64,000 nucleotides of DNA, from contig NZ_CP066339.1 in the NCBI RefSeq assembly GCF_016406125.1, forward strand, positions 1,674,001 through 1,738,000. The letters are read 5' to 3'. The position numbers and the translations under genes were made by a program. Shown here in pieces: positions 16,045 to 59,758 of the stretch. Under the pieces are notes generated by a model that searched no databases, was not told the origin of the DNA, and saw nothing but the letters and a program-made list of their open reading frames with translations. The number at the start of each line of letters is the position of its first letter. Position 1 is the stretch's first letter. The DNA is from Alicyclobacillus sp. SO9 (GTDB lineage Bacteria > Bacillota > Bacilli > Alicyclobacillales > Alicyclobacillaceae).

Positions 16045-16114
16045 TCGACAGCCAAAGGTTGTTTTTCGTATGCGATGACGCGGACTTCCCGCAGGCTCGC
16101 AGCATGACAAGCAG

Positions 16115-16636: not shown

Positions 16637-16672
16637 GTTACCAACCACATCCAGGCTGGGGTGTGGGATTGA

Positions 16673-17155: not shown

Positions 17156-17242
17156 TCGACTACAGACATCCAGGATAGGTAATATATGGACTGTTGTCTA
17201 CTTAGACGTACCAAGCCCCATCCAAGCTAGACACGCGATCCA

Positions 17243-17880: not shown

Positions 17881-18420
17881 ATGCCGTTAGTTGGGAACCC
17901 AGCTCCAGATTTCGACATGTTGTCAACAAAGAACATGAAAACCTTGGATGAGCGTGTTAAACTGTCTGACTATAAAGGCAAGTGGTTGGTTATGTTTTTC
18001 TATCCCGCCGACTTCACTTTTGTCTGCCCGACAGAGATTATTGCGATGAATGACAGGCTGCAAGAGTTTAAAGACTTGGATGCCGAAGTTCTGGGGATTA
18101 GCACAGACAGTGTGCACAGTCACAAGGCATGGATTAATACACCAAAAGAAGACAATGGCCTGGGCGGTTTGGACTATCCGTTAGGCGGAGACTTCACGAA
18201 GGAAGTTGCCAGCAAATACGACGTGCTGGTTGAGGCTGAAGGTGTAGCACTGCGAGGTCTGTTTATTATCGATCCCGATGGCGTACTCCGCTACCAAGTG
18301 GTACACGATCTGAACATTGGCCGCAGTGTTGATGAGACCCTGCGTGTTCTCGAAGCCTTGCAAGCAGGCGGCATGTGTCCGGCAAACTGGCAGCCTGGAG
18401 ATGCGTTGCTCGAAGTCTGA
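17881..18420 (+). CDS. 2-Cys peroxiredoxin (AhpC/Prx1 type)
   Basis: Thiol peroxidase reducing hydrogen peroxide and organic hydroperoxides. 179 residues: peroxidatic Cys in FTFVCPTEI (about residue 46), resolving Cys near the end in GGMCPANW (about residue 165), so a typical 2-Cys enzyme. The absence of an ahpF neighbour suggests a thioredoxin-type reductant. Start: ATG at 17881 lies 9 bases after AGGAGG; an ATG at 17875 is too close. The thioredoxin-like gene at 18593 follows on the same strand. Confidence 0.92.
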   Translation: MPLVGNPAPDFDMLSTKNMKTLDERVKLSDYKGKWLVMFFYPADFTFVCPTEIIAMNDRLQEFKDLDAEVLGISTDSVHSHKAWINTPKEDNGLGGLDYPLGGDFTKEVASKYDVLVEAEGVALRGLFIIDPDGVLRYQVVHDLNIGRSVDETLRVLEALQAGGMCPANWQPGDALLEV

Positions 18421-41016: not shown

Positions 41017-41195
41017 TTTCAAACCTCCTCTGTCCGTACAGTGAACGGGCGCAAACGTAGTTCTCCAACAAGCATATGGCTGTGCCCCTCAAGTTCGCAT
41101 CTGGCACCCGTCATTAGTCCTGCTAAATCAAGCAAACGCCTACCCCTCAAGAAAACTCAGTACATACGCTGTAGGGAACACTGGAGGGGTTTTGA

Positions 41196-42311
41196 ATGCT
41201 GGCTGTTGTGACCAATGTCTTTCCTTTGGATCCAAATCTGCAGCGGCGCGCGACCGCATTTCGAATACTGGCAGAAACAGTGGCTTTCTATGGTCAAGAT
41301 ATCATTGTTAGTTCTCCCCAAAAGCTAGGCAAAGACGGAAGCATTACGGGATGGGAATTTGTTGCTCCTACGCCGGCACAAGGACTCGAATGGAGGCAAT
41401 CGGTTCGCCCGCTGCCCACGCAGACAGTCTTCTTTGATTCGATGTACCTCGGTGCGGGAAAAGCGGAGCGCAATCTCCTTCAAAGTATGCGGGTGCTTGC
41501 ACAGAGTAAGAACCTCCCTTGGTTCAACCCCGTTTTACCTGGCAAACATCGGTTGTTTCGGTGGTTGTCGCAACAACCTCTGGAACTGGGGTCTGTACCT
41601 GTCACATACGGCAGATTCACGATAAAAAAGCTGCAGGCGGATTTGAAAGACGGGAAGACACTATGGCTTAAACCCGCATTTGGTTCCGGCGGAATGAACA
41701 TGGTTCGGATGCAGTATGTTCCTCCCAATCAGTACCGTGTGGTCGGAGAACGGATGAGTGATGGTCGGGTCGATGAAGTGATGGAGGATGGAGAGTTACA
41801 ACGAATGCTCCAACTCCTATTGGCGCGCCAGCCCTACTTCTTGCAGGAGAACGTGCCTCTGTTGGCCGATACTAAGGGGAGCAGAGTGGATTTTCGGGTT
41901 ACACTTGTCCGGGATGTAACCGGTGCATGGCAGACCGTTGCCATAACACTGCGCAAGAGTGCGCCAGAGTCCTATCTGACCAATTATCATGCAGGAGGAA
42001 ACATTTTTTCCCTGGCCTTTCAGAAAGAAAATGTAGTGCCAAAAGACCTGTCCGTTGACCCCGAGATGGTCTCATTGGAGAACATCAAGGGATTTTCCTA
42101 CAGTATTGCTTCAGTCCTGCAAGCTCGGTATCCCGCTCTAGGGGTCCTTGGTGTTGATGTAGCGCAGGCCGACAACGGCCAACTCTACGTGTATGACTGT
42201 AACACTCGGCCGGGACGAGACATTCTGACAGATGACGAACTCGTTCATTTTATGAAACACGTCGCCGGGTTTGCAGAGTACCTACGACGACAGAGTTCGT
42301 TGGATGGCTAA
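41196..42311 (+). CDS. YheC/YheD family ATP-grasp protein (spore-coat associated)
   Basis: 371 residues. The N-terminal part carries the YheC/D pattern (FNPVLPGKHRLFRWLSQQP); the C-terminal ATP-grasp part has WLKPAFGSGGMNMVRM, PYFLQENVPLL, RVDFRVTLVRD, LGVLGVDVAQADNGQLYVYDCNTRPGRDIL. B. subtilis YheC and YheD are endospore coat-associated proteins of unknown reaction, with YheD forming rings around the forespore. It starts the long plus-strand glycan gene run, divergent from the GT4 gene. Confidence 0.82.
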   Translation: MLAVVTNVFPLDPNLQRRATAFRILAETVAFYGQDIIVSSPQKLGKDGSITGWEFVAPTPAQGLEWRQSVRPLPTQTVFFDSMYLGAGKAERNLLQSMRVLAQSKNLPWFNPVLPGKHRLFRWLSQQPLELGSVPVTYGRFTIKKLQADLKDGKTLWLKPAFGSGGMNMVRMQYVPPNQYRVVGERMSDGRVDEVMEDGELQRMLQLLLARQPYFLQENVPLLADTKGSRVDFRVTLVRDVTGAWQTVAITLRKSAPESYLTNYHAGGNIFSLAFQKENVVPKDLSVDPEMVSLENIKGFSYSIASVLQARYPALGVLGVDVAQADNGQLYVYDCNTRPGRDILTDDELVHFMKHVAGFAEYLRRQSSLDG

Positions 42312-45237: not shown

Positions 45238-45263
45238 GACGCGCAGGTTGTATGCCTGCGCGT
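45238..45263 (+). promoter_or_regulatory. Strong hairpin before the nucleotide-sugar dehydrogenase
   Basis: Perfect 10-bp stem GACGCGCAGG-TTGTAT-CCTGCGCGTC, 57 bp before the next start codon. No T run follows, so it is either a weak terminator or a leader structure. Confidence 0.5.
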
Positions 45264-45319
45264 CCGTGCTTGTTCCTCCGTACTATAGCGTAGGTGTCGT
45301 GCTGAAAGGAGGAAGGCAA

Positions 45320-46600
45320 GTGCATGTAGCAAGTGAAAGCCCAACAACATTTGCGCGAGTCTCCGTGGTAGGACTCGGTTTTGTAGGCTTGCCTTTGGCA
45401 TTAGCATTTTGGCGCAGTGGATATCATGTGACCGGCATCGATGTAGATACCTCAAAGTTGAATCGGCTTCGTGAGGGAAAGAGTTACCTGAGTAGTGTTT
45501 GTAATGAGGAACTTGCAGAGCTGATGGCGTCACCCGCCTTTTCGGTCAGCGGCAACTTTGATGCAGTAGCTGAAACAGATGCGGTGATTGTCTGTGTACC
45601 AACCCCTTTAAACGAGGCGAAGCTTCCAGACTTGAAGTATGTCACAGATGCCTGTGTTTCAATCTCTCCTCATTTGCATTCGAATCAACTGTTTGTATTG
45701 GAGAGCTCAACGTACCCAGGAACAACAGAAGACGAAATCATTCCCTTACTCGAAAAATCGGGACTCAGGGCAGGCCGGGATTTTTACGTGGCTTATTCTC
45801 CGGAGCGAATTAATCCGGGAAGTGACGCTCCCTTGGAAGAGATTCCGAAAGTGATTGGCGGAGTAAATGACCTGTCTTTGCAGCAGGCAGTAGGGTTGTA
45901 TTCACGTGTATTTCACAAGCTGGTACCTGTTTCGTCTCTAAAGACAGCAGAAATGACCAAATTGGTCGAGAACACACAGCGTTTTGTGAATATCTCCTTA
46001 ATGAACCAGTTGACGAGGCTCTGTCAGACACTGGACGTCAGCATTTGGGAAGTCATTGATGCTGCGGCAACGAAACCCTACGGCTTTACACCCTATTATC
46101 CGGGGCCTGGAATTGGGGGGCATTGTATTCCGGTGGATCCGCTGTATCTGCAGTGGTTGGCAAATGAAAACGGGTATTCCCTTGGGCTTGTGAAGGAATC
46201 GCAAGCGGTTAACGATGAAATGCCAAGCTATATCGCCGACCGTATTTTGCTGCTGGCAAAGGACAAGAATCCGCGCGTACTCATTGTCGGAGTAACGTAC
46301 AAACCGGATGTCAATGACATCCGCGAATCAGCGTCACTGGAAGTAGTGAGACAGTTGATTGAACGAGGTGTTGACGTGGATTATTTCGATCCGTTTGTAC
46401 CCGAAATTGTTGTGCCAAAAGCCCGGCTGCAATCTGTAGTGCTCAGTCCCGATGCGATTGCAGGATATGATGCAGTCGCTGTTTTAACCGCACATTCCGC
46501 TGTTGACTACAGCCTGCTTCAAAGCAGAGCCAAGGTGATTTTGGACACTCAAAATACGTTTCGAGCGGGCGACAGACGAGAAAACGTAGTGAAGCTTTAA
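45320..46600 (+). CDS. UDP-N-acetylglucosamine 6-dehydrogenase-type enzyme (WbpA-like)
   Basis: 426 residues of the UDP-sugar 6-dehydrogenase family: VVGLGFVGLPLALAF, VCVPTPLN, ESSTYPGTTE, YSPERINPG, and catalytic Cys in GGHCIPVDPLYL. The AATKPYGFTPYYPGPGIGGHCIPVDP string is typical of WbpA (UDP-GlcNAc to UDP-GlcNAcA) rather than UDP-glucose dehydrogenases. GTG with AAAGGAGG 7 bases upstream. With the next gene and those at 50601 and 51381 it completes a UDP-diacetamido-uronate pathway. Confidence 0.85.
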   Translation: MHVASESPTTFARVSVVGLGFVGLPLALAFWRSGYHVTGIDVDTSKLNRLREGKSYLSSVCNEELAELMASPAFSVSGNFDAVAETDAVIVCVPTPLNEAKLPDLKYVTDACVSISPHLHSNQLFVLESSTYPGTTEDEIIPLLEKSGLRAGRDFYVAYSPERINPGSDAPLEEIPKVIGGVNDLSLQQAVGLYSRVFHKLVPVSSLKTAEMTKLVENTQRFVNISLMNQLTRLCQTLDVSIWEVIDAAATKPYGFTPYYPGPGIGGHCIPVDPLYLQWLANENGYSLGLVKESQAVNDEMPSYIADRILLLAKDKNPRVLIVGVTYKPDVNDIRESASLEVVRQLIERGVDVDYFDPFVPEIVVPKARLQSVVLSPDAIAGYDAVAVLTAHSAVDYSLLQSRAKVILDTQNTFRAGDRRENVVKL

Positions 46601-46629: not shown

Positions 46630-47721
46630 ATGATGACAATGAATGTCGGACTAATTGGTTGCGGTTTTATTGGGAAGAAACATGCAAAGAGCATTGCGAG
46701 TGCCCATGACATTCGTTTACGGGCTGTTTGCGACACGGAGACGGACCGGGCGGCGGAACTTAGAAGATACTACGCATCGCTGACGCAAGACCCGCTCGAG
46801 ATAGAAAGCTACCAGTTCTATGAATCGCTGCTGGAGAATCCTCAACTGGATACTATCGCAATCACTGTACCAAGCGGCCTGCACTACCGCATTGCACGGG
46901 AAGCACTGCTGAGAGGTAAGCATGTTGTTCTGGAAAAACCCATGACCCTGTCGTTGATAGAAGCAAGATCATTGATTCAAATTGCAGAGACCAGGCAAAG
47001 GAAGTTAATTGTGTGTCACCAGAAACGGTTCTTCCCACATTTAAGAAGCATCAAGGGGTTAATGGACCGACGAGGACTTGGCAGAGTGGTCACTGCCTCC
47101 CTCTCGTTAATGTACAACCGCAACGACAATTACTACAACCAAAGTGCGTGGCGAGGGACGTGGAAAATGGACGGCGGTGTCCTGTTGAATCAAGCTATCC
47201 ACGACATCGATATTCTTCTCTGGCTCACGGGACAGCCAAGGACTGTACAGGGTTTCGTAGAACGTTTGATTCGCCCCATCGAAGCAGAGGACACGGCAGC
47301 GGCCGCCATTGTCTTGGAGAACGGGACTCTGCTGACGATTGACGCTACGGTATGTGCAACAGAGGGGACTTCGAGGGAGGCCGTAGCCGTCACAGGAAGC
47401 GCCGGAGCGTTTGTTCTCGAAGGAAAGAACTTAAAGCCGACTTACTGGAACGTGCCGGGTGTCGAGGAGCCAGTTGTTTCTGCAGTGGACCCCTATGCTC
47501 AGTTATACCAGGATGTTCACGACTCGATTTACAACAATTGTCCGCCTCTGGTTGAAGCCGTCGAAGCGGTGACTGCACTCGAAACCATTTTTGCGATTTA
47601 TCGATCTTCTGTTTTGGAGAAAGCCGTCACGCTTCCATTGAACACCATGTCCACACTCATTATGAAAGATAAACTGCAGCGAAGAGCAGCGGTACGATGT
47701 CAAGGCCCTAAGGTGACATAA
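46630..47721 (+). CDS. Gfo/Idh/MocA sugar-nucleotide oxidoreductase (WbpB/WlbA-like)
   Basis: 363 residues. Rossmann loop LIGCGFIGKKHAKSI, EKPMTLSLIEA, and the C-terminal active-site pattern WRGTWKMDGGVLLNQAIHDIDILLW with His-x3-Asp, as in WlbA/WbpB, which oxidise C3 of UDP-GlcNAc-uronate. Starts: three in-frame ATGs within 10 bases; the first is used, with GGTGAGAG upstream. The IS110 element inserted behind it separates this gene from its probable partners. Confidence 0.82.
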   Translation: MMTMNVGLIGCGFIGKKHAKSIASAHDIRLRAVCDTETDRAAELRRYYASLTQDPLEIESYQFYESLLENPQLDTIAITVPSGLHYRIAREALLRGKHVVLEKPMTLSLIEARSLIQIAETRQRKLIVCHQKRFFPHLRSIKGLMDRRGLGRVVTASLSLMYNRNDNYYNQSAWRGTWKMDGGVLLNQAIHDIDILLWLTGQPRTVQGFVERLIRPIEAEDTAAAAIVLENGTLLTIDATVCATEGTSREAVAVTGSAGAFVLEGKNLKPTYWNVPGVEEPVVSAVDPYAQLYQDVHDSIYNNCPPLVEAVEAVTALETIFAIYRSSVLEKAVTLPLNTMSTLIMKDKLQRRAAVRCQGPKVT

Positions 47722-47853: not shown

Positions 47854-49104
47854 TTATGCGCGTTGTCGGACCCCTCCTTCCGGAGTGTAAAGTCGGTTGG
47901 TCTTTAGCAGATAGAAGACCACTCGCATCAGTTTCCGGGCTGTAAGCGCAAGGGTACGTCCCTCGGCAAATTCCTTTGGCTCCGCTCTCTTCTTGGCATA
48001 GTACTCGGCGAAAACAGGGTCGTGCACCCGGACACTGTTTGCCGCTTCAACCATGTAGTACTTGAGGTAGCGGTTGCCAGAATGAATCAGTCGAGTTCGG
48101 TTGGCTGTGAATTTCCCGGACTGGTGAACGGTCCAAGCGAGCCCGGCGTGTTTAGCGGCTTCCGCGTGGCTCTTAAACTGGCTTACATCCAGCTCAGCTA
48201 CAATGCCGGAAGCAAGAATGGGACCGATACCGGGAATGGAATCAAGGGTTTGCGGGATCGTCGCCAAGTGGTCCTCAATTCCTTTGCGTAGTGCCTTCAG
48301 TTGCTCTTGTACCGTTCGAATCACGCGAATACTAGAAGCCATTGCGAGATTGACCGAGTCCGACATCGACTGGGGTAGCCGGTACGAGGAGCGAGCAGCC
48401 TTCTGTAGCACTTTAGCAACGACCTCAGGATTTTCGAATCGGTTCTTGCCATGTGCCACAAGGAATTCAATGAGACGCTCAAGGGGCATCTCACAGAGTT
48501 CCTCAACGGATTCGAATTCCTCCATGACAGCAATGGAAGTTGCCGAGAGCTTGTTTCTCTTAAAGGGACCTGTGCTGCTGTAGTCACTGAACTTGAGATA
48601 CAAGTTCGTCATGAGGAAGTTGCTCTCTCTAGACAGATCCTGCATCAGGTGGTAGCGGGCTCGCGTCAAGCGCTGCAACGCCATGAGCGGCTCGCTCCAG
48701 GTAAAGGGATGCGGGAGAAGGCCTGTCCGAAGCTTAGCTGCGATAAACCAGGCATCTACTCTATCGTTCTTGGGGGCACTCAGGTAATGGGATTTCTTAA
48801 ACTCCCTGATAAGACTGGGGTTAAAGACGTAGACCCTACGCTGAACACCAAAGTCCAAATGACGTTGCAGATACATGGCGGCATGGGTTGAGTAGCATCC
48901 AGTATGTTCGAGACCAAAGAGAATCTCTTCAGCCTGTTTCTGTTTTGCCAGCTTGGAGATACGATCCTGAAACTCTAAAATCCCAGGACGATTGTTGGTA
49001 ACGGTGAATCGACTCACAGGTCGTTTCTCATCGTCCTGTGTTAAGCAGCAAACCACGTTCTCTTGGCTGCCTACATCAATTCCGACAAACAAGGAGGAAG
49101 TCAA
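47854..49104 (-). CDS. IS110-family transposase
   Basis: 416 residues. The N-terminal RuvC-like DEDD domain opens with LFVGIDVGSQENVVC (first Asp) and contains FGLEHTGCYS and PKNDRVDAWFIAAKL. The C-terminal Transposase_20 domain shows IPGIGPILASGIVAELDVSQFKSHAEAAKHAGL and the serine in HSGNRYLKYYMVEAA. Start: TTG 7 bases after AAGGAGGTG. The gene appears intact, so the element may be active. In this family the DEDD and Ser residues work together with a bridge RNA. Confidence 0.93.
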   Translation of the reverse strand: MTSSLFVGIDVGSQENVVCCLTQDDEKRPVSRFTVTNNRPGILEFQDRISKLAKQKQAEEILFGLEHTGCYSTHAAMYLQRHLDFGVQRRVYVFNPSLIREFKKSHYLSAPKNDRVDAWFIAAKLRTGLLPHPFTWSEPLMALQRLTRARYHLMQDLSRESNFLMTNLYLKFSDYSSTGPFKRNKLSATSIAVMEEFESVEELCEMPLERLIEFLVAHGKNRFENPEVVAKVLQKAARSSYRLPQSMSDSVNLAMASSIRVIRTVQEQLKALRKGIEDHLATIPQTLDSIPGIGPILASGIVAELDVSQFKSHAEAAKHAGLAWTVHQSGKFTANRTRLIHSGNRYLKYYMVEAANSVRVHDPVFAEYYAKKRAEPKEFAEGRTLALTARKLMRVVFYLLKTNRLYTPEGGVRQRA

Positions 49105-49440
49105 TATAATCACCTCCTTCAGGTTGGGATGCAGATGCCTGCGACCTCGGGATGACCCTGGGAAACCCATGAACGACAGCCTTGCGAGCTATTGGAATAC
49201 ACCAGACGTCATCGGTGCACGAGCCTCCTTCTGCTGGCAGGAGGGATGACGGACCGGGAAACAGTCAGCGTGTAGGTCTATTCCATGGGGCCAGGGGAAC
49301 AATCTTTCCTCGGAAGACACCCTCAGATGAGGGGCAACGGGAGGGATAGGAACATTCCCTTGGTAGACACCTACGGCTATTTTCCCAAGATCAGCCCGAG
49401 GTCGTAAACACTCACTTTGTCACAGAAAGGTCTATCAACA
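49105..49440 (-). ncRNA. Predicted IS110 bridge-RNA region
   Basis: Non-coding 5' flank of the transposase, conserved in place with the bridge RNA of IS110-group elements (IS621). It has inverted repeats such as CCTCATCTGAGG, and twice the word GGTGTCT(A/T)CC with AAGGGAA/GAGGAAA behind it, suiting two similar loops. Exact ends are not visible. Confidence 0.45.
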
Positions 49441-49543: not shown

Positions 49544-50518
49544 ATGTATAAGCAATCCCGAATTCTCGTCACAGGCGGCGCTGGATTCCTTGGCAGTCAA
49601 CTGATTCGCCGCCTGGCAGCTGAAGAGCCTCGTCACATCACTGTGCTGGATGACTTGTTTACTGGAAATGAGAACAGTATTTTGCGACAAGACAACATTA
49701 CATTTGTCCACGGATCCGTTACAGACAGCACTCTAGTTCGAACTTTGCTGCAGGATGCTGACTATGTTTTTCATTTTGCAGCTCGCAACATGCTGCTCTC
49801 CATCCCTTATCCTGAGTCGGATTTCACAGTTAACGCCATGGGTACACTACAGCTTTTGCTCAACCTGTTGCCGCAGCGAAATCATGTAAAGAGATTCGTT
49901 TATGCGTCGACTTCCTCCATCTACGGGAACGCCAAGGAATTGCCGATAACAGAGGAACGGTTTCACGTCAGTACTCCGTATGCCGCCAGCAAATTTGCCG
50001 GGGAACTCTTGGTCGCAGCGTATTGTGAATCCTTTGGTCTGCCGGCAACAGCAGTACGGTTCTCAAATGTCTACGGACCGGGCCAGGTAAGTTCCAACCC
50101 GTACTGCGGGGTCGTTTCAAAGTTCATGCAGGCTGTTGTGGACGGCGTTCCGATGACTGTTTATGACGATGGAGAGCAGTCTCGTGATTTTACTTACGTA
50201 GATGATGCCATCAATGCGGTTTTACTGGCCGGCCTATCGAAGAGGACTGAAGGTCAGGTAATGAATGTCGGAACCGGGGTCGAAACCACTGTAAACCAGT
50301 TAGCAGCTCTCATCGCTGAAATTGCGAATCACGTGGATTATCCGGTGAGGCATACGACGAAGAGAAAAGTTGATACCGTTCGGCGTCGCGTCATGGATAC
50401 AACCAGACTCCGTCAGTTGACAGGCTGGGAACCGCAAGTGTCTTTGCGAGAAGGGCTGATGAATACATGGGAGTGGTTTGTGAAGGAGAATCAAAGCCAC
50501 AATTCTGCGGGGAAATAG
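49544..50518 (+). CDS. NAD-dependent epimerase/dehydratase (GalE/WbpP-like)
   Basis: 324 residues, extended SDR: TGGAGFLGSQLIRRL, DYVFHFAARN, VYASTSSIYGNAKE and the catalytic Tyr-x3-Lys in TPYAASKFAGE, with RFSNVYGPGQ. Probably a C4-epimerase of UDP-sugars, though the substrate is unknown. ATG with CAAGGAGGG upstream. First intact gene right of the IS. Confidence 0.85.
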   Translation: MYKQSRILVTGGAGFLGSQLIRRLAAEEPRHITVLDDLFTGNENSILRQDNITFVHGSVTDSTLVRTLLQDADYVFHFAARNMLLSIPYPESDFTVNAMGTLQLLLNLLPQRNHVKRFVYASTSSIYGNAKELPITEERFHVSTPYAASKFAGELLVAAYCESFGLPATAVRFSNVYGPGQVSSNPYCGVVSKFMQAVVDGVPMTVYDDGEQSRDFTYVDDAINAVLLAGLSKRTEGQVMNVGTGVETTVNQLAALIAEIANHVDYPVRHTTKRKVDTVRRRVMDTTRLRQLTGWEPQVSLREGLMNTWEWFVKENQSHNSAGK

Positions 50519-50600
50519 TCCTGAATTGCGGGTCATCCACAGGACACTGCAGCCAATCAAGATGATGCTGGAGACCACCAGCGAGAGAGGAGAGGGAGTC

Positions 50601-51347
50601 GTGGAACGCGAGACATCAAATGCTGTGGTGCATCAGACTGCAATCCTCGGAGAGCGTGTGAAGTTGGGGTGGAATGTTGTTATCGCAGAAAACGTGAAGA
50701 TTGGTGATGACGTGAACATTGAAGACAATGTCGTAGTGAGGGAAGGGACTGTGGTTGGAAGCGGATCGGCCGTAGGCAGTAACTCAGTCTTGGGAAAAGC
50801 TCCGATAACGAACCTGCGTATAAAACGAAAGCCCAAGGCGTTACCCCCACTAGAGATAGGGAACAACGTCAGTATTGGTGCAGGAGTGGTGATAAACAGG
50901 GGCTCTGTTATTGGCAACGGTGTTTTAGTAGGAGACTTGGCATCGATTCGAGAGCGTGTTTCGATTGCTGCGAATTCAGTCATTGGAAGGTCTGCTTCAA
51001 TCGAGTTAAACACGAAAATTGGCAACCGTGTCGTCGTGGAAACGGGAGCATACATTACAGGAGACAGCATTTTGGAAGATGACGTATTTGTTGGGCCGGA
51101 AGTTTCGACTTCCAACGATAAATACATGGGACTGAGACCCTACCCCTATCAAGGTTCCATTATTAGACAAGGCGCAAGAATCGGCAACAATGCCACACTG
51201 TTGCCTGGTGTGGAGATTGGCATCGGCGCTGTTGTGGGTGCAGGTGCAGTTGTGACACAAGCTGTAAATGCAAATCAGGTGGCAGTTGGCGTACCTGCCA
51301 GAGAAATCGGTCAGGTATCAAGTTTGTTTCACAAAGACGATGAGTAA
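50601..51347 (+). CDS. Left-handed beta-helix N-acetyltransferase (WbpD/WlbB-like)
   Basis: 248 residues made of hexapeptide repeats (VHQTAILGERVKLGWNVVIAENVKIGDDVNI and so on), with an inserted loop near residues 60-85 (APITNLRIKRKPKALPP) and a C-terminal VGVPAREIG. This is the shape of WbpD/WlbB, which acetylate the 3-amino group of UDP-GlcNAc3NA from acetyl-CoA. GTG start with GGAGAGGGAG upstream; a longer frame from 50526 lacks a ribosome site. Sits directly before the aminotransferase that would supply its substrate. Confidence 0.85.
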   Translation: MERETSNAVVHQTAILGERVKLGWNVVIAENVKIGDDVNIEDNVVVREGTVVGSGSAVGSNSVLGKAPITNLRIKRKPKALPPLEIGNNVSIGAGVVINRGSVIGNGVLVGDLASIRERVSIAANSVIGRSASIELNTKIGNRVVVETGAYITGDSILEDDVFVGPEVSTSNDKYMGLRPYPYQGSIIRQGARIGNNATLLPGVEIGIGAVVGAGAVVTQAVNANQVAVGVPAREIGQVSSLFHKDDE

Positions 51348-51380: not shown

Positions 51381-52493
51381 ATGATGGGAAAAATCCCAGT
51401 TATTGATTTGTCGTATCAATGGCAGTCTGTAAAAACCGAGTCTCTGAGCGTGCTCGAAGAAGTACTGAATCAGGGACAGTACATTTTAGGAAATCATGTT
51501 GCCGCTCTTGAACAGGAGGTAGCTGAATACACTGGAAATCGATACGGCGTAGGCGTGGGTAATGGAACAGACGCGCTCACTTTGGCACTGCACGGACTTG
51601 GTGTGGGGGCAGGTGATGAGGTCATTACAACACCGTTTACGTTTTTTGCGACTGCAGAAGCGATTGCAGCTGTAGGGGCAATACCGGTGTTTGCGGATAT
51701 AGACCCGAAAACGTTTGTGATTACGGCTGAGACAGTGAAAGAGAAAATCTCATCGAAAACAAAAGCGATTCTGCCAGTGCACATTTTTGGACTGATGGCA
51801 GATATGAAAAGCCTTCAGGAGTTGGCTCGGGCAGACGGTTTGAAACTTGTTGAAGACGCCTGTCAGGCGATTGGAGCCAAGCAGGATTCGCGTGGCATTG
51901 GCGTGTACAGCGACGCTGCTGCGGTCTCTTTCTTTCCCACAAAGAACCTCGGTTCCTATGGGGACGGGGGAATGGTTCTCATGGAAGATGAAGAATTAGC
52001 GGCTCGCATCAAGCGATTACGCGTTCACGGGAGCACTCAAAAATACAGGCATGCGGAGCTGGGCTGGAACAGCCGTTTAGATGAAATTCAAGCTGCTTTA
52101 CTTCGGATTAAACTGAGAAAACTGGACGAATGGACAAAACAAAGACAGACCCTGGCTGCTCGTTATCAGGAGGCTCTCAATCAAGTCCCAATCCAACTGC
52201 CTTCCTCTCCAAGAGATACGGAGCATGTCTACCATCTCTATACCATCCTTGCACAGGATCGCGATGGACTGAAGCAGCATTTATCCAACCAGCAAATTGG
52301 CAGTTCCGTTTATTACCCTTTGCCTCTGCATTTACAACCGGCTTTGGCGGGATTGGGGTATCAGAAAGGGGCTTTGCCTGCAGCGGAAGATGTATCAGAA
52401 CACTGCTTGAGTTTGCCCTTGTACCCTGGTATGGAGGAGCAGCAGCAGGATGAAGTTATCAAAGCTGTAAAAGCGTATTTTGCAGGTGCTTAG
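51381..52493 (+). CDS. DegT/DnrJ/EryC1-family aminotransferase (WbpE/WlbC-like)
   Basis: 370 residues. PLP Lys in FFPTKNLGSYGDGG (about residue 185), DLSYQWQSVKTE start, GNGTDALTLALHGLGVGAGDEVITTPFTFFATAEAI and VEDACQAIGA. In the WbpABDE pathway it puts an amino group on C3 of the keto-sugar made by the Gfo/Idh/MocA enzyme. Two ATGs three bases apart; the first is used. It lies 33 bp after the acetyltransferase. Confidence 0.9.
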   Translation: MMGKIPVIDLSYQWQSVKTESLSVLEEVLNQGQYILGNHVAALEQEVAEYTGNRYGVGVGNGTDALTLALHGLGVGAGDEVITTPFTFFATAEAIAAVGAIPVFADIDPKTFVITAETVKEKISSKTKAILPVHIFGLMADMKSLQELARADGLKLVEDACQAIGAKQDSRGIGVYSDAAAVSFFPTKNLGSYGDGGMVLMEDEELAARIKRLRVHGSTQKYRHAELGWNSRLDEIQAALLRIKLRKLDEWTKQRQTLAARYQEALNQVPIQLPSSPRDTEHVYHLYTILAQDRDGLKQHLSNQQIGSSVYYPLPLHLQPALAGLGYQKGALPAAEDVSEHCLSLPLYPGMEEQQQDEVIKAVKAYFAGA

Positions 52494-52590: not shown

Positions 52591-53589
52591 TTGATTACGG
52601 TGTTGCACACACCCATCGAAATAGCCGGTCAAATGGGTATTTTATGTCAAGGACTCCGCTCTGTTGGCTGGCGCGCAAACGGGTACAACTGGTTTCAGAC
52701 CTACCTCAACTATGAAAGTCCCATTGTTGAGACAGATGCTTACGAATTGCAGCACGTATTTGACCAAGTGGTTCATGCCGCTGATATCATTCATTTTCAC
52801 AACGGAGATACAATGTTGGCAGATTACAAAGATTTACAGATAGCAAAAGCGCTGAACAAAAAAATGGTCATGCATCATTGGGGAAACGATGTACGCGACG
52901 TTGAAAGACTTAATCAAAGGCTCAAATATCCTTTACCGTTGGGTTATCACAGCACTCAACAGATTCAAGACAAGTTGCAAAAGCTGTCTGCGTATATTGA
53001 TACGGCAATCATTCAAGACAATGAACTGTATGAGTTCATCAAACCCTATTACAAAAATGTATACATTCTTCCCTTAGCATTGAACACTTCTGACCTTGCG
53101 CCAGCCTATCCGGATATGACTAAGCAAAAACCGTTGCTTGTACACGCACCTACTAATGATGAATTCAAGGGAACAAAGTATGTTGAGGCTGCCATCGCTG
53201 CATTGCAGACAAGACACCAGTTCGATTACCAGCGGATTGAAAAGATGGACCACAAAACCGCGATGAGCTGGTATTCAAAAGCTGATGTTGTGATAGACCA
53301 GCTGCTTTGCGGCACCTATGGACTGTTGAGCGTGGAAGCCATGGCGATGGGAAAGCCAGTTGTCACGTATATACGAGAAGAACTGAAGCCAACGTATCCT
53401 GGACAACTGCCAATTGTTTCAGCCTCGCCGGATACATTGGAAAGCACCTTGGAGGACTTAATACTACATCCGAAGAAGCGAAGGATTTTAGGTCAACAGG
53501 GCAGGCATTATGTTGAGAAGTATCACGATGTGCGGGTTGTTACGAAACAGTTGATAGCAATCTACAAACAGGTCTACGCAGATGGATAA
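52591..53589 (+). CDS. GT4-like glycosyltransferase, module copy A
   Basis: 332 residues. The start reads ITVLHTPIEIAGQMGILCQGLRSVG, mid part IIHFHNGDTMLADYKDL and MHHWGNDVRDVERL, and the C-terminal donor lobe LLVHAPTNDEFKGTKYVE, VVIDQLLCGTYGLLSVEAMAMGKPVV. The same words recur in the gene at 54444, so the two are paralogues. TTG/ATG-type start at 52591 after GGGCGGTGA. Acceptor and sugar unknown. Confidence 0.82.
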   Translation: MITVLHTPIEIAGQMGILCQGLRSVGWRANGYNWFQTYLNYESPIVETDAYELQHVFDQVVHAADIIHFHNGDTMLADYKDLQIAKALNKKMVMHHWGNDVRDVERLNQRLKYPLPLGYHSTQQIQDKLQKLSAYIDTAIIQDNELYEFIKPYYKNVYILPLALNTSDLAPAYPDMTKQKPLLVHAPTNDEFKGTKYVEAAIAALQTRHQFDYQRIEKMDHKTAMSWYSKADVVIDQLLCGTYGLLSVEAMAMGKPVVTYIREELKPTYPGQLPIVSASPDTLESTLEDLILHPKKRRILGQQGRHYVEKYHDVRVVTKQLIAIYKQVYADG

Positions 53590-53613
53590 CCGGACGAGGG
53601 GGTGAAGCCCGCC

Positions 53614-54447
53614 ATGGACAAAGTCGCAAGTCAAGTTCAATCGTTCGAGTCGCTTCGCATAGTGCGGCTTCCAATCCTTACGTCGGTCTCTGATTTTAAG
53701 TCGCATCAATGGACGGCACAGGACCTACGGGCTTACCTTAGCGCGAACCGGTCTAATCCGAATTCATTACCGCTGTACAACGGTGTGTTATTTGATGCGG
53801 ACCTGACAAATCAGGGAGCCATGATATCACCATGGTCTATGGGATTTGGACACCTTGCCAAAATAGACGATTGGCTGGCGGTGGCGAAAGAGCTGTTTCA
53901 ACCGAAAATAAACGTCACTGCGCTGAGAGAATGTTCACAATGGTACGGAGCGAAACCTGTGGATGTCTGGATTGGATTACCGTATCCCTTCGAACAAAAG
54001 TCTGTTTTTGGGATTGTCGGGGCACAGGAGCTTCGGTTTTTAAACAATGCAGATGCACGCGCTGATGCACTGTTGTGGTGGATTGATAGGGTACTCACAA
54101 CGATGCTCACGGACCATCGGGATGTAAATGACAAAGTGTTTGAAACGACTGTGAGGATGCGGGGGTTCGTATGGACGCGGGGGACCTTCTGGGGAACGGA
54201 CCAGGAGACTTTTAGGAAGGTTGCGCAAGGACTTCACAGACGTAAACTGGCACTGGTGCGAATCCAAAATGAGAATGCAGATGATACGGACACCCATGAA
54301 CCTGGCGGTGCTTCACCTGACATCACGGTGATTCGCCCTTCCTATCGCCAACATCGAACTTCAGGATTGTATGCTTTTTTCAGTCCAGATAACAAAGTCG
54401 CCCTGGTTGAATCAGTAGCTCCCAAGAGAGGGGCGGGAGAGCCGTGA
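53614..54447 (+). CDS. DUF4855-like protein, module copy A (short form)
   Basis: 277 residues. The central part matches the gene at 55501: PVDVWIGLPYPFEQKSVFGIVGAQELRF, ALLWWIDRVLTTM and RMRGFVWTRGTFWGTDQETFRKV. This is the DUF4855 pattern, whose members look like TIM-barrel sugar-acting enzymes of unknown activity. Compared with 55501 the last about 80 residues that complete the barrel are replaced by a polar tail, so activity is doubtful. ATG chosen because GAGGGGGTG lies 9 bases upstream. Stop overlaps the next gene by four bases. Confidence 0.6.
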   Translation: MDKVASQVQSFESLRIVRLPILTSVSDFKSHQWTAQDLRAYLSANRSNPNSLPLYNGVLFDADLTNQGAMISPWSMGFGHLAKIDDWLAVAKELFQPKINVTALRECSQWYGAKPVDVWIGLPYPFEQKSVFGIVGAQELRFLNNADARADALLWWIDRVLTTMLTDHRDVNDKVFETTVRMRGFVWTRGTFWGTDQETFRKVAQGLHRRKLALVRIQNENADDTDTHEPGGASPDITVIRPSYRQHRTSGLYAFFSPDNKVALVESVAPKRGAGEP

Positions 54448-55466
54448 GAGTATTTCAAGGACCCACTGAAATCGCAGGACAAATGGGTATTATCAGCAAG
54501 GTGTTAAACAAACTGGGCGTGCATGCTGCAGCGTACAATACGTTTCACTCGTATTTGGGGTACAGAGACGGACTCTATAATGTGGACCGGTTTGAACTGC
54601 AGTGGATGATGAAAAACATCATTTCCTATTTCGACTTGTTTCATTTTCACTACGCGGATACGCTCTGTGAGAATTACTGTGACCTTGCGGAAATACACCG
54701 TGTGGGCAAGTCGGTACTCATGCATCATTGGGGAAATGATGTACGGATCCATGAACTTGCAGCACAAAACAATCCGTATGTGTATACCGGTGATTCACCC
54801 CCTTCAGATGTAGTTCACAAACACTTGTCCGAGTTGTCGCAATACATCACAGACGCAGTGGTTCAGGATTACGAAGTCTATCCGTATGTTGCACCGTACT
54901 ATAAACGGGTTCACGTTGTTCCCATAGCATTGGATGTCGGCGCGGTTACGCCTCGCTTTCCATCACTGACAGCGTCTAAGCCTCTTGTTGTTCATGCACC
55001 CACAAATCCATTATTCAAAGGGACAGTACATGTAGAACAGGCAATAGAGCGGTTGTACAAAGAGGGTGTACAGTTTCGCTACAAGCGAATTGAGAAGATG
55101 GCAAACAAAGATGCTGTTCGCTTATACCAAGAGGCTGATATTGTTGTCGATCAAGTCCTGTGCGGTTCCTACGGACTCCTGGCCGTCGAATCGATGAGCC
55201 TGGGAAAACCGGTGATTGGCTATATTCGTGAGGATTTAAAAGAGGCATTTCCAGAAGTGCCTCCCATTGTATCAGCGAATCCGGACTCGCTGTTTGAAGT
55301 ACTTCGAACAGTGATACAAAACCCCGAACTACGGCTGGTACATGGAAAAAAGGGACGAGAATATGCACTGAGGTATCACAGTGCAGAAACAGTTGTAAAA
55401 CAATTACTTCGGATTTATCAGAGACTTGATGAGAAATTTGATGAGAAGCTTGATGAGGAACGGTAA
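54444..55466 (+). CDS. GT4-like glycosyltransferase, module copy B
   Basis: 340 residues, paralogue of 52591: PTEIAGQMGIISKVLNKLG, LFHFHYADTLCENYCDL, LMHHWGNDVRIHEL, VVHAPTNPLFKGTVHVE and VVDQVLCGSYGLLAVESMSLGKPVI. GTG start overlapping the DUF4855 stop (GTGA). The C terminus ends with repeated DEKFDEKLDEE, coded by a 12-15-bp repeat. The donor sugar is unknown. Confidence 0.82.
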   Translation: MRVFQGPTEIAGQMGIISKVLNKLGVHAAAYNTFHSYLGYRDGLYNVDRFELQWMMKNIISYFDLFHFHYADTLCENYCDLAEIHRVGKSVLMHHWGNDVRIHELAAQNNPYVYTGDSPPSDVVHKHLSELSQYITDAVVQDYEVYPYVAPYYKRVHVVPIALDVGAVTPRFPSLTASKPLVVHAPTNPLFKGTVHVEQAIERLYKEGVQFRYKRIEKMANKDAVRLYQEADIVVDQVLCGSYGLLAVESMSLGKPVIGYIREDLKEAFPEVPPIVSANPDSLFEVLRTVIQNPELRLVHGKKGREYALRYHSAETVVKQLLRIYQRLDEKFDEKLDEER

Positions 55467-55500
55467 GAAGTCTTGAATACTCACGGTGTGAGAAATTCTG

Positions 55501-56547
55501 ATGCAGGTGGTGGCGGCGATGGGCGAGCAGTCCGAGAAAGGCTACGCAGGACGTAATGTTTACGGTAATTACAGTCCTGTTGTCCAGTTGTATTGCGGAA
55601 ATGATTTGGTTGACAGCGGTTATCAAAGATGGAACCAAAACAGCTTGGAAGATTATTTGCTCTACCGCATTAATGACATGCCGGCAGATGTGATGTTTAA
55701 GTCCTTCTTGTTTTCTCCGCGGAGAATGAAAAGCAGACGTTTTCTCACACCAGCGCTCACGGGCTTTGAACAGCCAGCGAATGCAAGTGATTGGACCGAA
55801 TGGCTCAATGAACTGTTTCATCGCGGAGGCAACTTAATGGCTCTGAGAGACGCAGTATCTAGTTGTGCACTTCCGGTTGCTCCGGTGGATGTATGGGTAA
55901 CGGTGCCGTATCCAGAAATCAAACAGACTAGATTTGGGAAAGCAGATGGACAGAAACTGAATTTTTCCTCTTCAGAAGACCGGATTGTTGCTGTGAATTG
56001 GTGGATTAAGGAGTTCGCGAACCGGTGGAACCAGTCAGGATTGGAGGGTCTGCTTCGCTGGCGGGGGATAAGTTGGGGGCGTGAGGTGATAAACGATGCA
56101 GACATAGAGGTCATTCCGTCTGTCAGTTCCTTTGTACACGGGCTGGGAAAACAACTCCTATGGATGAGCAATTACGGTACAGCTCATGCAGAAAAGTGGC
56201 AAAGCCTTGGGTTTGAAATTGCAGTGTTATATCCCAATTATTACGGGAACACCGCATTTGGATGGGAATGGATTGATTATGCAGCACAGTTCGCGCGGTC
56301 TCATGGTTGCGGCTTGCAGTGGCGGTATGGGAAGGGTTTATTGTACGACCGCCATCACCTCTATGATTACTTCAATCGAGGTCTGCCGGAATACAACGAC
56401 TATATGGACAAAAGCTTTATAGTGGCCTCGTTTGACAATGTGCCAATCAGCGAAATTTATCAAAATCAGTTGGAGTTGTACATTGGCATTTACAGCTTTA
56501 ATAAGGGAATCTATCAAAAGTGGAACTATGAAGGGATAGACTATTGA
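55501..56547 (+). CDS. DUF4855 protein, module copy B (full form)
   Basis: 348 residues. DUF4855 features: VMFKSFLFSPRR, PVDVWVTVPYPEIKQTRFGKADGQKLNFSSSEDRI, VNWWIKEFANRW, LRWRGISWGREV, then WMSNYGTAHAEKWQSLGFEIAVLYPNYYGNTAFGWEW and KSFIVASFDNVP. The acidic residues after the strands (for instance the Glu in SWGREV) are placed as in glycoside hydrolases. It could trim or modify the glycan, but this is conjecture. ATG start at 55501; an in-frame GTG nearby is possible. Confidence 0.7.
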   Translation: MQVVAAMGEQSEKGYAGRNVYGNYSPVVQLYCGNDLVDSGYQRWNQNSLEDYLLYRINDMPADVMFKSFLFSPRRMKSRRFLTPALTGFEQPANASDWTEWLNELFHRGGNLMALRDAVSSCALPVAPVDVWVTVPYPEIKQTRFGKADGQKLNFSSSEDRIVAVNWWIKEFANRWNQSGLEGLLRWRGISWGREVINDADIEVIPSVSSFVHGLGKQLLWMSNYGTAHAEKWQSLGFEIAVLYPNYYGNTAFGWEWIDYAAQFARSHGCGLQWRYGKGLLYDRHHLYDYFNRGLPEYNDYMDKSFIVASFDNVPISEIYQNQLELYIGIYSFNKGIYQKWNYEGIDY

Positions 56548-56812: not shown

Positions 56813-57910
56813 ATGCCTGTGCGGGTAATGACAATCTTGGGTACACGTCCGGAAATTATTCGTCTATCACTTGTTATTAAAAAACTGGATGCGCTATCTG
56901 AACATATTTTGGTGCACACAGGTCAGAACTACAACTACTACTTGAACGACATTTTCTTTGAGCAAATGGAGATTCGCAAACCAGACCTTATGATAACAGG
57001 AAAGACGCATTCATTTGGTCAACAGCTTGGCTCTTTGATGCCTCGCCTGGAAGAACTCATCAAGGAACAGCAACCAGAACGGGTTCTGGTTTTGGGCGAT
57101 ACAAATACTGCTTTGGCTGCCACAGTCATTGCGTCTCGTTTGGGTGTTCCTATCTTTCATATGGAAGCAGGAAACCGTTGCTTTGACAGAAGTGTTCCAG
57201 AGGAATTAAACCGGAAGATGATTGACAGTATTGCTGATTTGAATCTTCCGTATACAAGTGGGAGCAGGGAAAATCTGCTTCGTGAAGGCATTGACACCAA
57301 CCGAATCAGTGTCTCTGGAAATCCAATTTACGAAGTTCTCTTGCATTATGCAGACCAGATACAGAGAAGTGACATTCATAAGCGACTGCAGATAGAAAAC
57401 CGGAATTATATGTTGATGACGGCACACAGAGCCGAGAACGTAGATAACCCCGAACGTCTCCGTAACATATTCAAAGCGGCCACGATGATTGCCGAGAGTA
57501 CAGATATGCCTGTCATTTGCAGTATTCACCCGCGCACAAAAGCACGCTTGCAGGAATACGGTGTCAGGTTCAATTCCAACCGTATCCAGACACATACGCC
57601 ATTTGGTTTCTATGATTTTATTGCTTTGGAAAAGCATGCTTCGCTTGTTCTCACAGACAGTGGAACAGTACAGGAGGAATGCTGTCTCTTTCACGTGCCT
57701 GCCGTCACAATGCGAAGAACCACAGAAAGACCTGAAACCATTGCATGTGGCAGCAACACCCTCGGAAGCGTAGAGACAGAGTCTATCGTCCTGGCTGCAA
57801 ATCTTGCAAACAGTAAGTCAGTCAACTGGAAGTGTCCGGAGGGGTATGAAGACACGGATGTTTCCTCACGTGTTGTGAACATTGTGTTGGGAGGACAGAT
57901 GTATGTTTGA
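56813..57910 (+). CDS. UDP-GlcNAc 2-epimerase family, CapG/FnlC/WbjD-like
   Basis: 365 residues. The WecB fold: ILGTRPEIIRLSLVIKKLD, HTGQNYNYYLNDIFFEQM, LVLGDTNTALAA, and the CapG-type FHMEAGNRCFDRSVPEELNRKM (plain WecB reads differently here). Also MTAHRAENVDNPERL and LTDSGTVQEECC. CapG epimerises C2 of the reduced 6-deoxy-sugar to give UDP-L-FucNAc (or L-QuiNAc). ATG with GGGGGGTG upstream. Overlaps the next gene by 8 bases; with the two following genes it forms a CapGEF-type set. Confidence 0.88.
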   Translation: MPVRVMTILGTRPEIIRLSLVIKKLDALSEHILVHTGQNYNYYLNDIFFEQMEIRKPDLMITGKTHSFGQQLGSLMPRLEELIKEQQPERVLVLGDTNTALAATVIASRLGVPIFHMEAGNRCFDRSVPEELNRKMIDSIADLNLPYTSGSRENLLREGIDTNRISVSGNPIYEVLLHYADQIQRSDIHKRLQIENRNYMLMTAHRAENVDNPERLRNIFKAATMIAESTDMPVICSIHPRTKARLQEYGVRFNSNRIQTHTPFGFYDFIALEKHASLVLTDSGTVQEECCLFHVPAVTMRRTTERPETIACGSNTLGSVETESIVLAANLANSKSVNWKCPEGYEDTDVSSRVVNIVLGGQMYV

Positions 57911-58892
57911 AAACGCGACTTGTCTGATTACGGGTGGAACGGGTTCCTGGGGACACGAACTTACACGCAAACTCCTTTCTTTTCATCCTAAGGAAATTCG
58001 TATTCTTTCCAGAAATGAATTTGCGCAAGTTCAGATGCAACGGAGATTTCAAGCCAATCCAATTCTGCATTTTGTGGTTGGAGATGTGAGGGACAGGGAA
58101 GCTGTGGAAGCGGCTTGTAAGAATGTTGATTACGTGTTTCATCTGGCTGCGCTAAAACACGTTCCCATTTGTGAATACCAACCGGAAGAAGCACTCAAAA
58201 CCAACCTGCAGGGCACACAAAATGTGATTAGGGCCAGTGTGGCAGCGGGCGTGAGAAAAGTCATTGACGTTTCCACTGACAAGGCGGTCGATCCCGTCAA
58301 TTTCTATGGCATGACCAAAGCCTTAGGCGAAAAGTTAATGATTCATGCCAACGACGAGTCAACAAGAACGCGGTTTGTCTGCATCCGCGGGGGCAATGTG
58401 TTGGGGACGAACGGAAGTGTTGTTCCTTTTTTCAAGAATCAAATTCTAGCAAATCGAAGGGTATCGCTAACACATCGAGACATGACTCGTTTTTTCCTGA
58501 CTGTAGGAGACGCCATCGAATTGCTTACGAAAGCAGCAAACCTCGCGGTTGGCGGCGAGACGTTCGTCATGAAAATGAAGAAGTGCAGCATTTTAGACTT
58601 GGCACAAGTCATGGGTGAAAGCTTGTCAGACAAAGGTATTGAAATTCAGGAAACTGGGATTCGCCCCGGTGAAAAGCTTCATGAAGTCCTGGTTTCCCGC
58701 AATGAAGCATCTCGAACCTATAAATTTGGTGAAGAATACTTTGTCATTCTACCTTCTCATCCGTCAGAAATGTTACAACGTGCATACCAGTCACTCGAAC
58801 CCGTCGAATTTACACAATATGATTCGAGTACCAATCTAATGGCAAAACCGTCGATTCGCTCCATGCTGACAGAAGGGGGCTTTCTTCCGTGA
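57903..58892 (+). CDS. UDP-GlcNAc 4,6-dehydratase (5-inverting), CapE/FnlA/PseB-like
   Basis: 329 residues of the short polysaccharide-synthesis SDR group: LITGGTGSWGHELTRKLL, LSRNEFAQVQMQRRF, VVGDVRDREAVEAAC, VFHLAALKHVPICEYQPEEALKTN, STDKAVDPVNFYGMTKALGEK with Tyr-x3-Lys, and RGGNVLGTNGSV. CapE of S. aureus has Met in place of the catalytic Tyr; here Tyr is kept, as in PseB. The reaction (UDP-GlcNAc to a 4-keto-6-deoxy-L-sugar) is assigned from context. ATG 8 bases after GGGAGG. Confidence 0.85.
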   Translation: MFENATCLITGGTGSWGHELTRKLLSFHPKEIRILSRNEFAQVQMQRRFQANPILHFVVGDVRDREAVEAACKNVDYVFHLAALKHVPICEYQPEEALKTNLQGTQNVIRASVAAGVRKVIDVSTDKAVDPVNFYGMTKALGEKLMIHANDESTRTRFVCIRGGNVLGTNGSVVPFFKNQILANRRVSLTHRDMTRFFLTVGDAIELLTKAANLAVGGETFVMKMKKCSILDLAQVMGESLSDKGIEIQETGIRPGEKLHEVLVSRNEASRTYKFGEEYFVILPSHPSEMLQRAYQSLEPVEFTQYDSSTNLMAKPSIRSMLTEGGFLP

Positions 58893-59758
58893 AGATCCTC
58901 GTTCTCGGCGGCGATGGCATGGCGGGGCATATGATTGTGGACTATTTTCGCAGTCTAAAGCAGCATGAAGTCTGGTTTACAGTTCGGAGAAGCATTACTG
59001 AGACCAATCCCTTGATACTTCACTTAAATGCCAAAGATAAGACGCGGTTGAAAAGTGTTTTACGACAGGTGCAGCCTGATGTCGTGATAAATGCCATCGG
59101 GCTATTAAATCAGGATGCAGAAGATCACACAGTGGACGCAATTATTGTGAATGCCTTGTTTCCCCATTGGCTTGTGGAGTATAGTCATGAGTTTCAATAT
59201 CGGATTTTGCACATTAGTACAGACTGTGTGTTTTCCGGCCATAAGGGAAGTTACGTAGAATCTGACAGAAAAGACGGCACAGGTGTTTATGCGAATACCA
59301 AGAGCCTGGGTGAAATAGACGAGAAGAGTCACCTAACCATTCGTACTTCCATCATCGGGCCGGAAATTAAAGCCGACGGTATTGGCTTATTTGAGTGGTT
59401 TATGCGTCAAAGTGGCACCATTTCGGGATATTCAAATGTGTTTTGGAATGGCATTACGACCTTGCAGTTGGCAAAGGTATTGAATGGTTTAGTTGACCGC
59501 GATTCAGACGGCATTATCCATGTTTTTTCACCTTATAGGATTTCCAAGTTTGACTTACTTCTGCTGTTCCAGGAAATTTTCGAGAAAGATGACGTTACTA
59601 TGAAGAGGGATGGCAGGGTTGTGTCAGACAAGACACTACATCGATTGAGGACAGACATTGAACCGGACATTCCGTCGTATAAAGACATGCTTCTGGAACT
59701 GAAGAGTTGGATGAGGGAACATCCAGACAAGTATCCACGCCATAAGCTGCCGTCATAA
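58889..59758 (+). CDS. RmlD-like sugar-nucleotide reductase
   Basis: 289 residues: VLGGDGMAGHMIVDYF, VVINAIGLLNQ, ISTDCVFSGHKGSYVESD, catalytic Tyr-x3-Lys in GVYANTKSLGE and RTSIIGPE. It reduces the 4-keto group made by the preceding enzyme. CapF/FnlB proteins of the FucNAc pathway carry an extra C-terminal cupin domain; it is absent here, as in WbvR-type reductases of the UDP-L-QuiNAc route. GTG start overlaps the previous stop by four bases. Confidence 0.85.
   Translation: MKILVLGGDGMAGHMIVDYFRSLKQHEVWFTVRRSITETNPLILHLNAKDKTRLKSVLRQVQPDVVINAIGLLNQDAEDHTVDAIIVNALFPHWLVEYSHEFQYRILHISTDCVFSGHKGSYVESDRKDGTGVYANTKSLGEIDEKSHLTIRTSIIGPEIKADGIGLFEWFMRQSGTISGYSNVFWNGITTLQLAKVLNGLVDRDSDGIIHVFSPYRISKFDLLLLFQEIFEKDDVTMKRDGRVVSDKTLHRLRTDIEPDIPSYKDMLLELKSWMREHPDKYPRHKLPS

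Follow-up and report, generated by a model that had tools for sequence, protein, structure and literature searches.

Catalysis in clan GH-A of the glycoside hydrolases relies on carboxylates carried by strands 4 and 7 of a (beta/alpha)8 barrel, and there are glycosidase barrels, such as narbonin and the 4F2hc ectodomain, which do not hydrolyse; we take the roles of these two to be non-catalytic and their genes not to lie beside those of glycosyltransferases. A glycosyltransferase (GT) with a non-catalytic partner is known from streptococci, where GtfA and GtfB form a physical complex and the partner is needed for activity or stability. For the protein family DUF4855 (PF16147) our literature search returned no described function, only a mention in a gene-name table, an absence which proves little with most subscription papers outside the scope of the search; a further search on inactive glycosidases and on glycosyltransferase complexes or chaperones, again mostly outside subscription papers, gave no relevant report. 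Here we describe a run of glycan genes of Alicyclobacillus sp. SO9 (genome size 5.3 Mb) in which two GT genes alternate with two DUF4855 genes, at 52591-56547 of a window of 64,000 nucleotides (1,674,001-1,738,000 of contig NZ_CP066339.1; all positions below are those of the window). According to our analysis the pairing of this GT with DUF4855 is much wider than the window, and the local duplication which an earlier note on this DNA had proposed is replaced by an old conserved partnership. We suggest, with a confidence that is about even, that the DUF4855 protein is a non-hydrolytic partner, of glycosidase fold, of the GT in the assembly of a spore-surface glycan.

The four genes follow each other on the forward strand in the order A-B-A'-B' and at the places which the earlier note gave: GT-A (52591..53589, 332 aa, TTG start), DUF-A (53602..54447 from a GTG, or from an ATG at 53614; 281 aa), GT-A' (54444..55466, 340 aa) and DUF-A' (55501..56547, 348 aa). 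The two GTs are related, as had been claimed from key words that indeed occur in both; they share 145 of 328 residues (44%, E=1e-102) and score 33.0 and 35.3 bits with PF13524, for which the cut-off is 25. The assignment of their neighbours to DUF4855 also holds, the PF16147 scores being 37.9 bits for DUF-A (profile positions 15-196 of 313) and 141.4 bits for DUF-A' (15-260 of 313), both above the Pfam cut-off of 27 bits, with 61 of 238 residues identical between the two by BLASTP (26%, E=6e-18). Elsewhere in this genome PF16147 matches just one protein, of 574 aa and about 0.27 Mb away, with an N-terminus that looks signal-like by eye.

The pairing recurs in other genomes. Within 41 genomes of the family, GTs with E<1e-80 occur in five only, and all 12 copies have a short DUF4855 gene as neighbour. 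When named genomes were searched with the GT alignment, the best 80 of 156 matches came to 69 loci, 70 with the window (L069 and L112 are one record, L096/L101 and L073/L077 are near copies; L numbers denote loci and G numbers genomes), and in 48 of the 70 a DUF4855 gene was found with the GT-linked profile. Loci of Bacillus, Paenibacillus and Clostridia usually have a DUF gene of opposite orientation between two GT genes, often with a third GT, and the pairing persists even though, in the majority of Bacillus and Paenibacillus loci, the DUF gene is oriented against the GTs. The GT tree has 171 rows, namely the matches within the 70 loci that reach at least 300 bits and more than 270 aa, and two further ones of L197; in it a branch with SH-aLRT support of 98 separates a clade with a DUF gene within 1.5 kb in 116 of 131 rows from a sister clade with 0 of 40. 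In a class sample of 398 genomes, where at most five candidates were scored per genome, the GT clade (at least 410 bits) is present in 13 genomes and the GT-linked DUF type (at least 261.9 bits) in 11, all of them among those 13; the next best DUF score is 137.1 bits, and the DUF gene is adjacent to a GT in ten of the 11, with G140 as the exception.

Ten loci of the GT clade hold no DUF gene in the fetched stretch. Seven were followed to the whole genome, of which five have the gene elsewhere (one of them apparently just beyond the stretch) and two, L079 and L086, are without the GT-linked type; for L100, L110 and L118 the count covers the stretch itself. No full-length GT-linked DUF was found in any of the eight genomes of the sister GT clade that were searched, which gave one fragment of 144 positions at 120 bits and one distant match in a frame of 1475 aa. 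These counts are not independent events, since the genomes are related to one another. The neighbour search which the earlier note had asked for finds GT-DUF4855 pairs recurrent in other spore formers, so its worry that they might not co-occur elsewhere has gone; that GT and DUF might work on the same glycan is plausible. As separate observations, L069 of Paenibacillus thermotolerans (2863-17950) packs four GT-linked DUF4855 genes and six GTs of this kind into 15 kb, an unbroken array richer than any other in the 70 loci, and L082 has the module on a 4.3-kb contig binned as Flavobacteriales, probably wrongly, because its proteins group with those of the Clostridia-type records L108, L125, L074 and L084.

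The earlier note had also asked for structure prediction of both DUF4855 proteins. The AlphaFold (AF2) model of DUF-A' (predicted local distance difference test, pLDDT, 94.4; predicted template modelling score, pTM, 0.92) is a (beta/alpha)8 barrel with strands at 27-34, 68-73, 129-134, 185-192, 218-224, 240-244, 271-277 and 307-312, a barrel of sugar-enzyme type, so the fold unrelated to sugar enzymes that could have spoken against the idea did not appear. VIA places GH5 endoglucanases first with this model (Z 15.5-14.9; 5e09 with Z 15.5, root-mean-square deviation 3.6 and 262 aligned residues), followed by Cwp19 (14.6) and further glycosidases, with identities of 5-11% in the listed rows; narbonin (1nar, Z 13.2) and the 4F2hc ectodomain (2dh2, Z 12.9), which do not belong to the same family as DUF4855, are in the list too. 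This GH5 ranking comes from VIA and not from Foldseek, which gave 15 PDB matches with E up to 0.001 in which non-glycosidase TIM barrels are mixed with glycosidases, the best being pyridoxine 5'-phosphate synthase (E=1.6e-5, TM 0.36) and the glycosidases, by title, being four (2yl6, 4yzp, 5yli and 1kqy). The DUF profile run against PDB sequences has one match, a designed TIM barrel (E=0.0013).

Strands 4 and 7 were assigned by topology, E195 of DUF-A' following strand 4 and Q273 and R275 lying on strand 7, places which we take to be the acid/base and nucleophile sites of clan GH-A. In a joint alignment that counts all long rows, the misaligned row of L005 included, the 81 DUF4855 sequences without this GT linkage (38 plus 30 long ones, and 13 others) have Glu at the E195 position in 80 cases, as part of a W-x-x-E after strand 4, and at the Q273 and R275 positions, a strand-7 E-x-E, in 78 and 80 cases. 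The 58 GT-linked rows have Glu at the E195 position in 26 of 57 and at the two strand-7 positions in 0 of 56 each, with Gln in place of the first E-x-E Glu in 51 of 56; L193 and L197, further members of the clade, also miss both. DUF-A' keeps E195 and has Q273 and R275 in place of E-x-E; in DUF-A there is Gly at the strand-4 position and the strand-7 region is missing. The likeness of DUF-A' to active GH-A enzymes extends to the barrel, whereas the presumed strand-7 nucleophile carboxylate is absent, and a glycan-cutting role is unlikely, since the presumed strand-7 catalytic carboxylates are gone. Other positions are held firmly in the clade, where W132 and D201 are invariant and D130, R194, Q273, G277, G279, D289 and N292 are found in at least 90% of 51 rows. 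From this alignment and the model we read the GT-linked DUF4855 as a probable pseudo-glycosidase under strong constraint.

In a tree of 94 DUF4855 proteins (built with 20 of the 37 usable long rows and 4 of the 30 class-search rows, and leaving out the fragments of L113) the GT-linked proteins, together with L193 and L197, are separated from the other 37 by a branch with SH-aLRT support of 99. They are shorter than the long members of the family, which mostly exceed 500 aa. Their presumed cytoplasmic location rests on length and architecture, because N-terminal hydrophobicity, which we considered as proof of it and dropped, has overlapping ranges (0.47-1.82 in 15 linked proteins, 0.97-2.24 in 7 long ones). 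We also considered, and rejected, further short DUF4855 genes (Paenibacillus-like and others) as GT partners: they keep E-x-E, and the regions taken show no A1-type GT next to them. One such different short group (L187-L192 and L194), which keeps E-x-E with Met for the first Glu in L191, lies by eye beside large helicase-like or PTS-type genes.

The GTs of the pair resemble the GT4/GT-B enzymes. Both score above the cut-off of PF13524, as given above, and below those of PF00534 and PF13692; the C-terminal half aligns with 3c4q (E=1.5e-4), which we take to be MshA, although the PDB entry itself speaks of predicted glycosyltransferases, and GT-A' compared with the PDB by sequence gives weak GT-B matches only. 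The E-x7-E motif is typical of retaining GT4 enzymes and is not universal among them. Here, with the register checked on 3c4q, all 171 rows have Gly in place of its first Glu and keep its second (Gly241 and Glu249 in GT-A'), so the complete motif is absent; as it is not universal, the loss of the first Glu is still compatible with membership of the GT4/GT-B fold. The window-type GTs further differ from 3c4q by an N-terminal E-I-A-G-Q motif, and a Cys preceding the Gly of E-x7-E marks the DUF-linked clade (128 of 131 rows, versus 1 of 40 in the sister clade). The idea that the DUF protein repairs a defect left by the lost Glu was discarded, as 40 of 40 rows of the sister clade, which is without DUF, carry this Gly too. 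One member of that sister clade, in Clostridium thermopalmarium (L124, 6679-9999), is fused to a GT2 domain and TPR repeats in an open reading frame (ORF) of 1107 aa.

A relation to sporulation is suggested by the sequences upstream of the DUF genes. Of 41 opposite-strand loci, 22 have the pattern CATANNCTRT in the 90 bases before the DUF start, where its density in these loci would predict 0.19, and the pattern is close to the Bacillus subtilis sigma-K -10 element printed as GCATANNNTA in a table of PMC3416734. Of two stricter patterns, AC-N14-17-CATAN2-3TA occurs in 6 of 42 (the null has a mean of 1.62 and a maximum of 6), and CATANNNTA, placed 25-60 bases ahead of the gene, in 5 of 41 (against a background with mean 0.42 and maximum 2). 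The sigma-E pattern was found in 0 of 42, and in the window there is no strict sigma-K match upstream of 45248, 49544, 52591 or 56813.

A candidate target in Bacillus may be seen in collagen-like proteins. In the published case, SgtA, encoded immediately upstream of bclA3, adds beta-O-linked N-acetylglucosamine (GlcNAc) to threonines of the collagen-like region of BclA3 (PMC7157674). Among our loci, collagen-like repeats of Gly-X-Thr type are present in 12 of the 48 with a DUF gene, and a GT2-like ORF with an SgtA-like start of ISLCM type in 8 of 70, while L077, L092, L104, L106 and L114 hold both; TPR repeats beside the GT2 domain were looked for in L104 only. The SgtA family is here assigned from the start as printed in a primer of PMC7157674, and, unlike our loci, the system in the accessible part of that paper comes with no named DUF4855. 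With a Pro rule the collagen scan retained 8 loci and with a looser rule 15 of 70; a control that gave 0 of 63 cannot count as fair, its loci being about 4 kb long. In G227 and G244, of one genus and not chosen for collagen, the repeats are at a distance of about 1-5 kb from the GT and DUF genes; among the 12 genomes examined in this way, six have no collagen match, and G000 has 26. It is plausible from such gene neighbourhoods that a spore-surface glycoprotein is the target in Bacillus.

On the observed synteny, phyletic co-occurrence, predicted fold and residue loss we build the following proposal as to glycan binding, partnership, timing in sporulation and destination at the spore surface. 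A cluster expressed in the mother cell would make a nucleotide sugar of amino-sugar-uronate type and build a spore-surface glycan, to which each GT would add one sugar. The GT-linked DUF4855 would be a cytoplasmic pseudo-glycosidase with a GH5-like barrel that has lost the strand-7 carboxylates for cutting and probably still binds a glycan or a sugar end. It may thus act as a partner of the GT, which holds or presents the acceptor, or stabilises the GT. In the window DUF-A' would be the intact partner and DUF-A a decaying copy, retained through translational coupling to GT-A'. A more specific form of the proposal we offer only tentatively: this family of pseudo-glycosidases, distributed over Bacilli and Clostridia, would be the dedicated partner of one GT clade, reading or holding a growing glycan of a spore-surface glycoprotein (collagen-like in Bacillus), and the former cutting pocket, with E-x-E turned into Q-x-x, would control the addition of sugars. 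If the partnership is true, DUF4855 splits into a majority that look like ordinary glycosidases, with the strand-4 Glu and the strand-7 E-x-E, and one clade that lost E-x-E and became bound to a glycosyltransferase; it would offer a clean example, open to test, of glycan assembly taking over a glycosidase fold and, for many non-model spore formers, a marker cluster for spore-surface glycans.

Several points weigh against this proposal. The catalytic residues of DUF4855 are putative and follow from strand topology in a model, the strand-4 Glu survives in about half of the GT-linked proteins, three of their conserved polar residues (R194, D201 and D289) sit in the loops after strands 4 and 7, and the active-site face of the barrel has no significant extra conservation (2.48 versus 2.35 bits, p=0.21). 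G140 carries the GT-linked DUF away from its GTs, and G075, G220 (the genome of L079) and the genome of L086 have the GT clade without it. No ORF matches both profiles among 181 GT and 61 DUF ORFs of the 70 loci, so that fusions lend no support to a complex. The CATANNCTRT pattern was defined post hoc, on loci that are partly close relatives, and collagen-like genes are not specific to DUF loci, being found also in 3 of the 22 others and not in the window.

Some of these points would suit a GT-linked DUF4855 that has remained an enzyme but altered its chemistry. It might, for example, act on the glycan intermediate as a trimming hydrolase, transglycosidase, phosphorylase or epimerase, through residues which this clade alone conserves, such as R194, D201, Q273 or D289. 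A new active site is possible, because the clade-specific R194, D201 and D289 lie in the strand-4 and strand-7 loops, with D201 on the active-site side, in a barrel that is intact, that often keeps E195 and whose set of clade-specific residues is strongly conserved. This explanation has against it that all 56 rows which reach the E-x-E positions are without Glu at either, that the strand-4 Glu has become Ala in 14 of 57 rows and other residues in 17 more, and that D130 sits close to the N-terminus of strand 3, off the usual active-site face; we regard this explanation as rather unlikely, though as the best of the alternatives. Less probable still, in our opinion, is that DUF4855 is a structural or regulatory protein of the spore coat, co-regulated with the GT and functionally independent of it, even though its gene has a promoter-like element of its own in more than half of the opposite-strand loci, is turned against the GTs in many and stands apart from them in G140; against this reading, the type is confined in the class sample to genomes with the GT clade (11 of 11), and all eight sister-clade genomes searched are without a full-length copy.

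The partnership that we propose is also an old one. The GT tree places GT-A in a lineage of 47 rows (support 97) and GT-A' in another of 61 (support 96), and each of the two lineages has members from Bacillus, Paenibacillus, Clostridia and Alicyclobacillus. DUF-A is placed together with the proteins of L068, L070, L071, L069 and L197 (support 100), and DUF-A' with those of L068, L070 and L123 (support 98). A DUF-A orthologue lies directly upstream of a GT-A' orthologue in six of six cases (the window, L068, L070, L071, L069 and L197), and L197, from G059, has it without GT-A beside it, from which DUF-A and GT-A' appear as the longest-kept neighbours. The order A-B-A'-B' is, on these trees, the local order of old paralogues. 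The two-gene tandem duplication of the earlier note is not supported, and a recent duplication, within this lineage, of an operon of GT and DUF that left two pairs for one and the same step, a reading to which the order itself would point, is contradicted by the separate lineages of both GTs and of both DUF proteins and by the tie of DUF-A to GT-A', and is very improbable.

The loss of the C-terminal part of DUF-A was correctly noticed there. With 281 aa it is shorter than its orthologues in L068, L070, L071, L069 and L197, which have 324-361 aa (starts picked by script), and in the alignment some 60-70 residues expected to hold barrel strands 7-8 are missing or replaced. Its AlphaFold model (mean pLDDT 82.1) is good as far as strand 6 or so and poor in the last 40 or so residues, where the last four blocks of ten have pLDDT 40-52 and strands are of low confidence only. 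The end of DUF-A overlaps the start of GT-A' by 4 bases, which suggests translational coupling. We read the shortening as a deletion, because the stop of DUF-A already overlaps GT-A'; a frameshift was considered and, judged from this one reading frame, which runs into that overlap, thought unlikely. The very long branch of DUF-A in the DUF tree (1.67) would be in keeping with decay.

The genes around the pairs look like a nucleotide-sugar pathway. The run is headed by a YheC/D-like ATP-grasp protein (41196..42311, +; PF14398, 123.6 bits), YheC/D being, as we assume, spore-coat proteins; the element CATACGCTGT (41163..41172, +), 33 bases ahead of its start, is the same that precedes many GT-linked DUF genes elsewhere. 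On the same strand come one epimerase and one GT2, a nucleotide-sugar dehydrogenase (45248..46600; TIGR03026, 402.1 bits, cut-off 189.8) and a GFO/IDH/MocA oxidoreductase (46630..47721; PF01408), which resembles UDP-GlcNAc 3-dehydrogenase yet scores 118.5 bits with NF040723, below its cut-off of 450. After an IS110-family transposase on the reverse strand (47854-49170) the forward run continues with a NAD-dependent epimerase/dehydratase-like protein (49544..50518; PF01370, 182.3 bits), a hexapeptide N-acyltransferase-like protein (50526..51347; PF00132) and a DegT/DnrJ-type sugar aminotransferase (51381..52493; PF01041, 405.9 bits), directly before GT-A. Downstream of the GT-DUF genes, at 56813-59758, are a WecB-like UDP-GlcNAc 2-epimerase, a PseB/CapE-like dehydratase and an RmlD-like reductase, presumably a pathway of UDP-L-FucNAc/QuiNAc type; the set upstream of the pairs resembles, we believe, the WbpA/B/D/E route, by which a 2,3-diacetamido uronic acid nucleotide is made. 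We leave the exact sugar unassigned, because the equivalog models stayed under their cut-offs. ORF translations read by eye show largely the same set around the pair in four Alicyclobacillaceae regions, in G059 and in Bacillus-, Paenibacillus- and Alkaliphilus-type loci.

In the four Alicyclobacillaceae regions the oxidoreductase and epimerase genes adjoin (by eye), and the genome holds 11 essentially identical copies of the IS110 element, from which its insertion between the two genes appears recent; it may be polar on the GT-DUF genes. An ORF similar to the DegT/DnrJ aminotransferase adjoins the GT-DUF pair in L062-L065 (by eye), and a CgeB-like GT (DUF3880 with PF13524) was confirmed in L099, with similar ORFs seen by eye in other loci.

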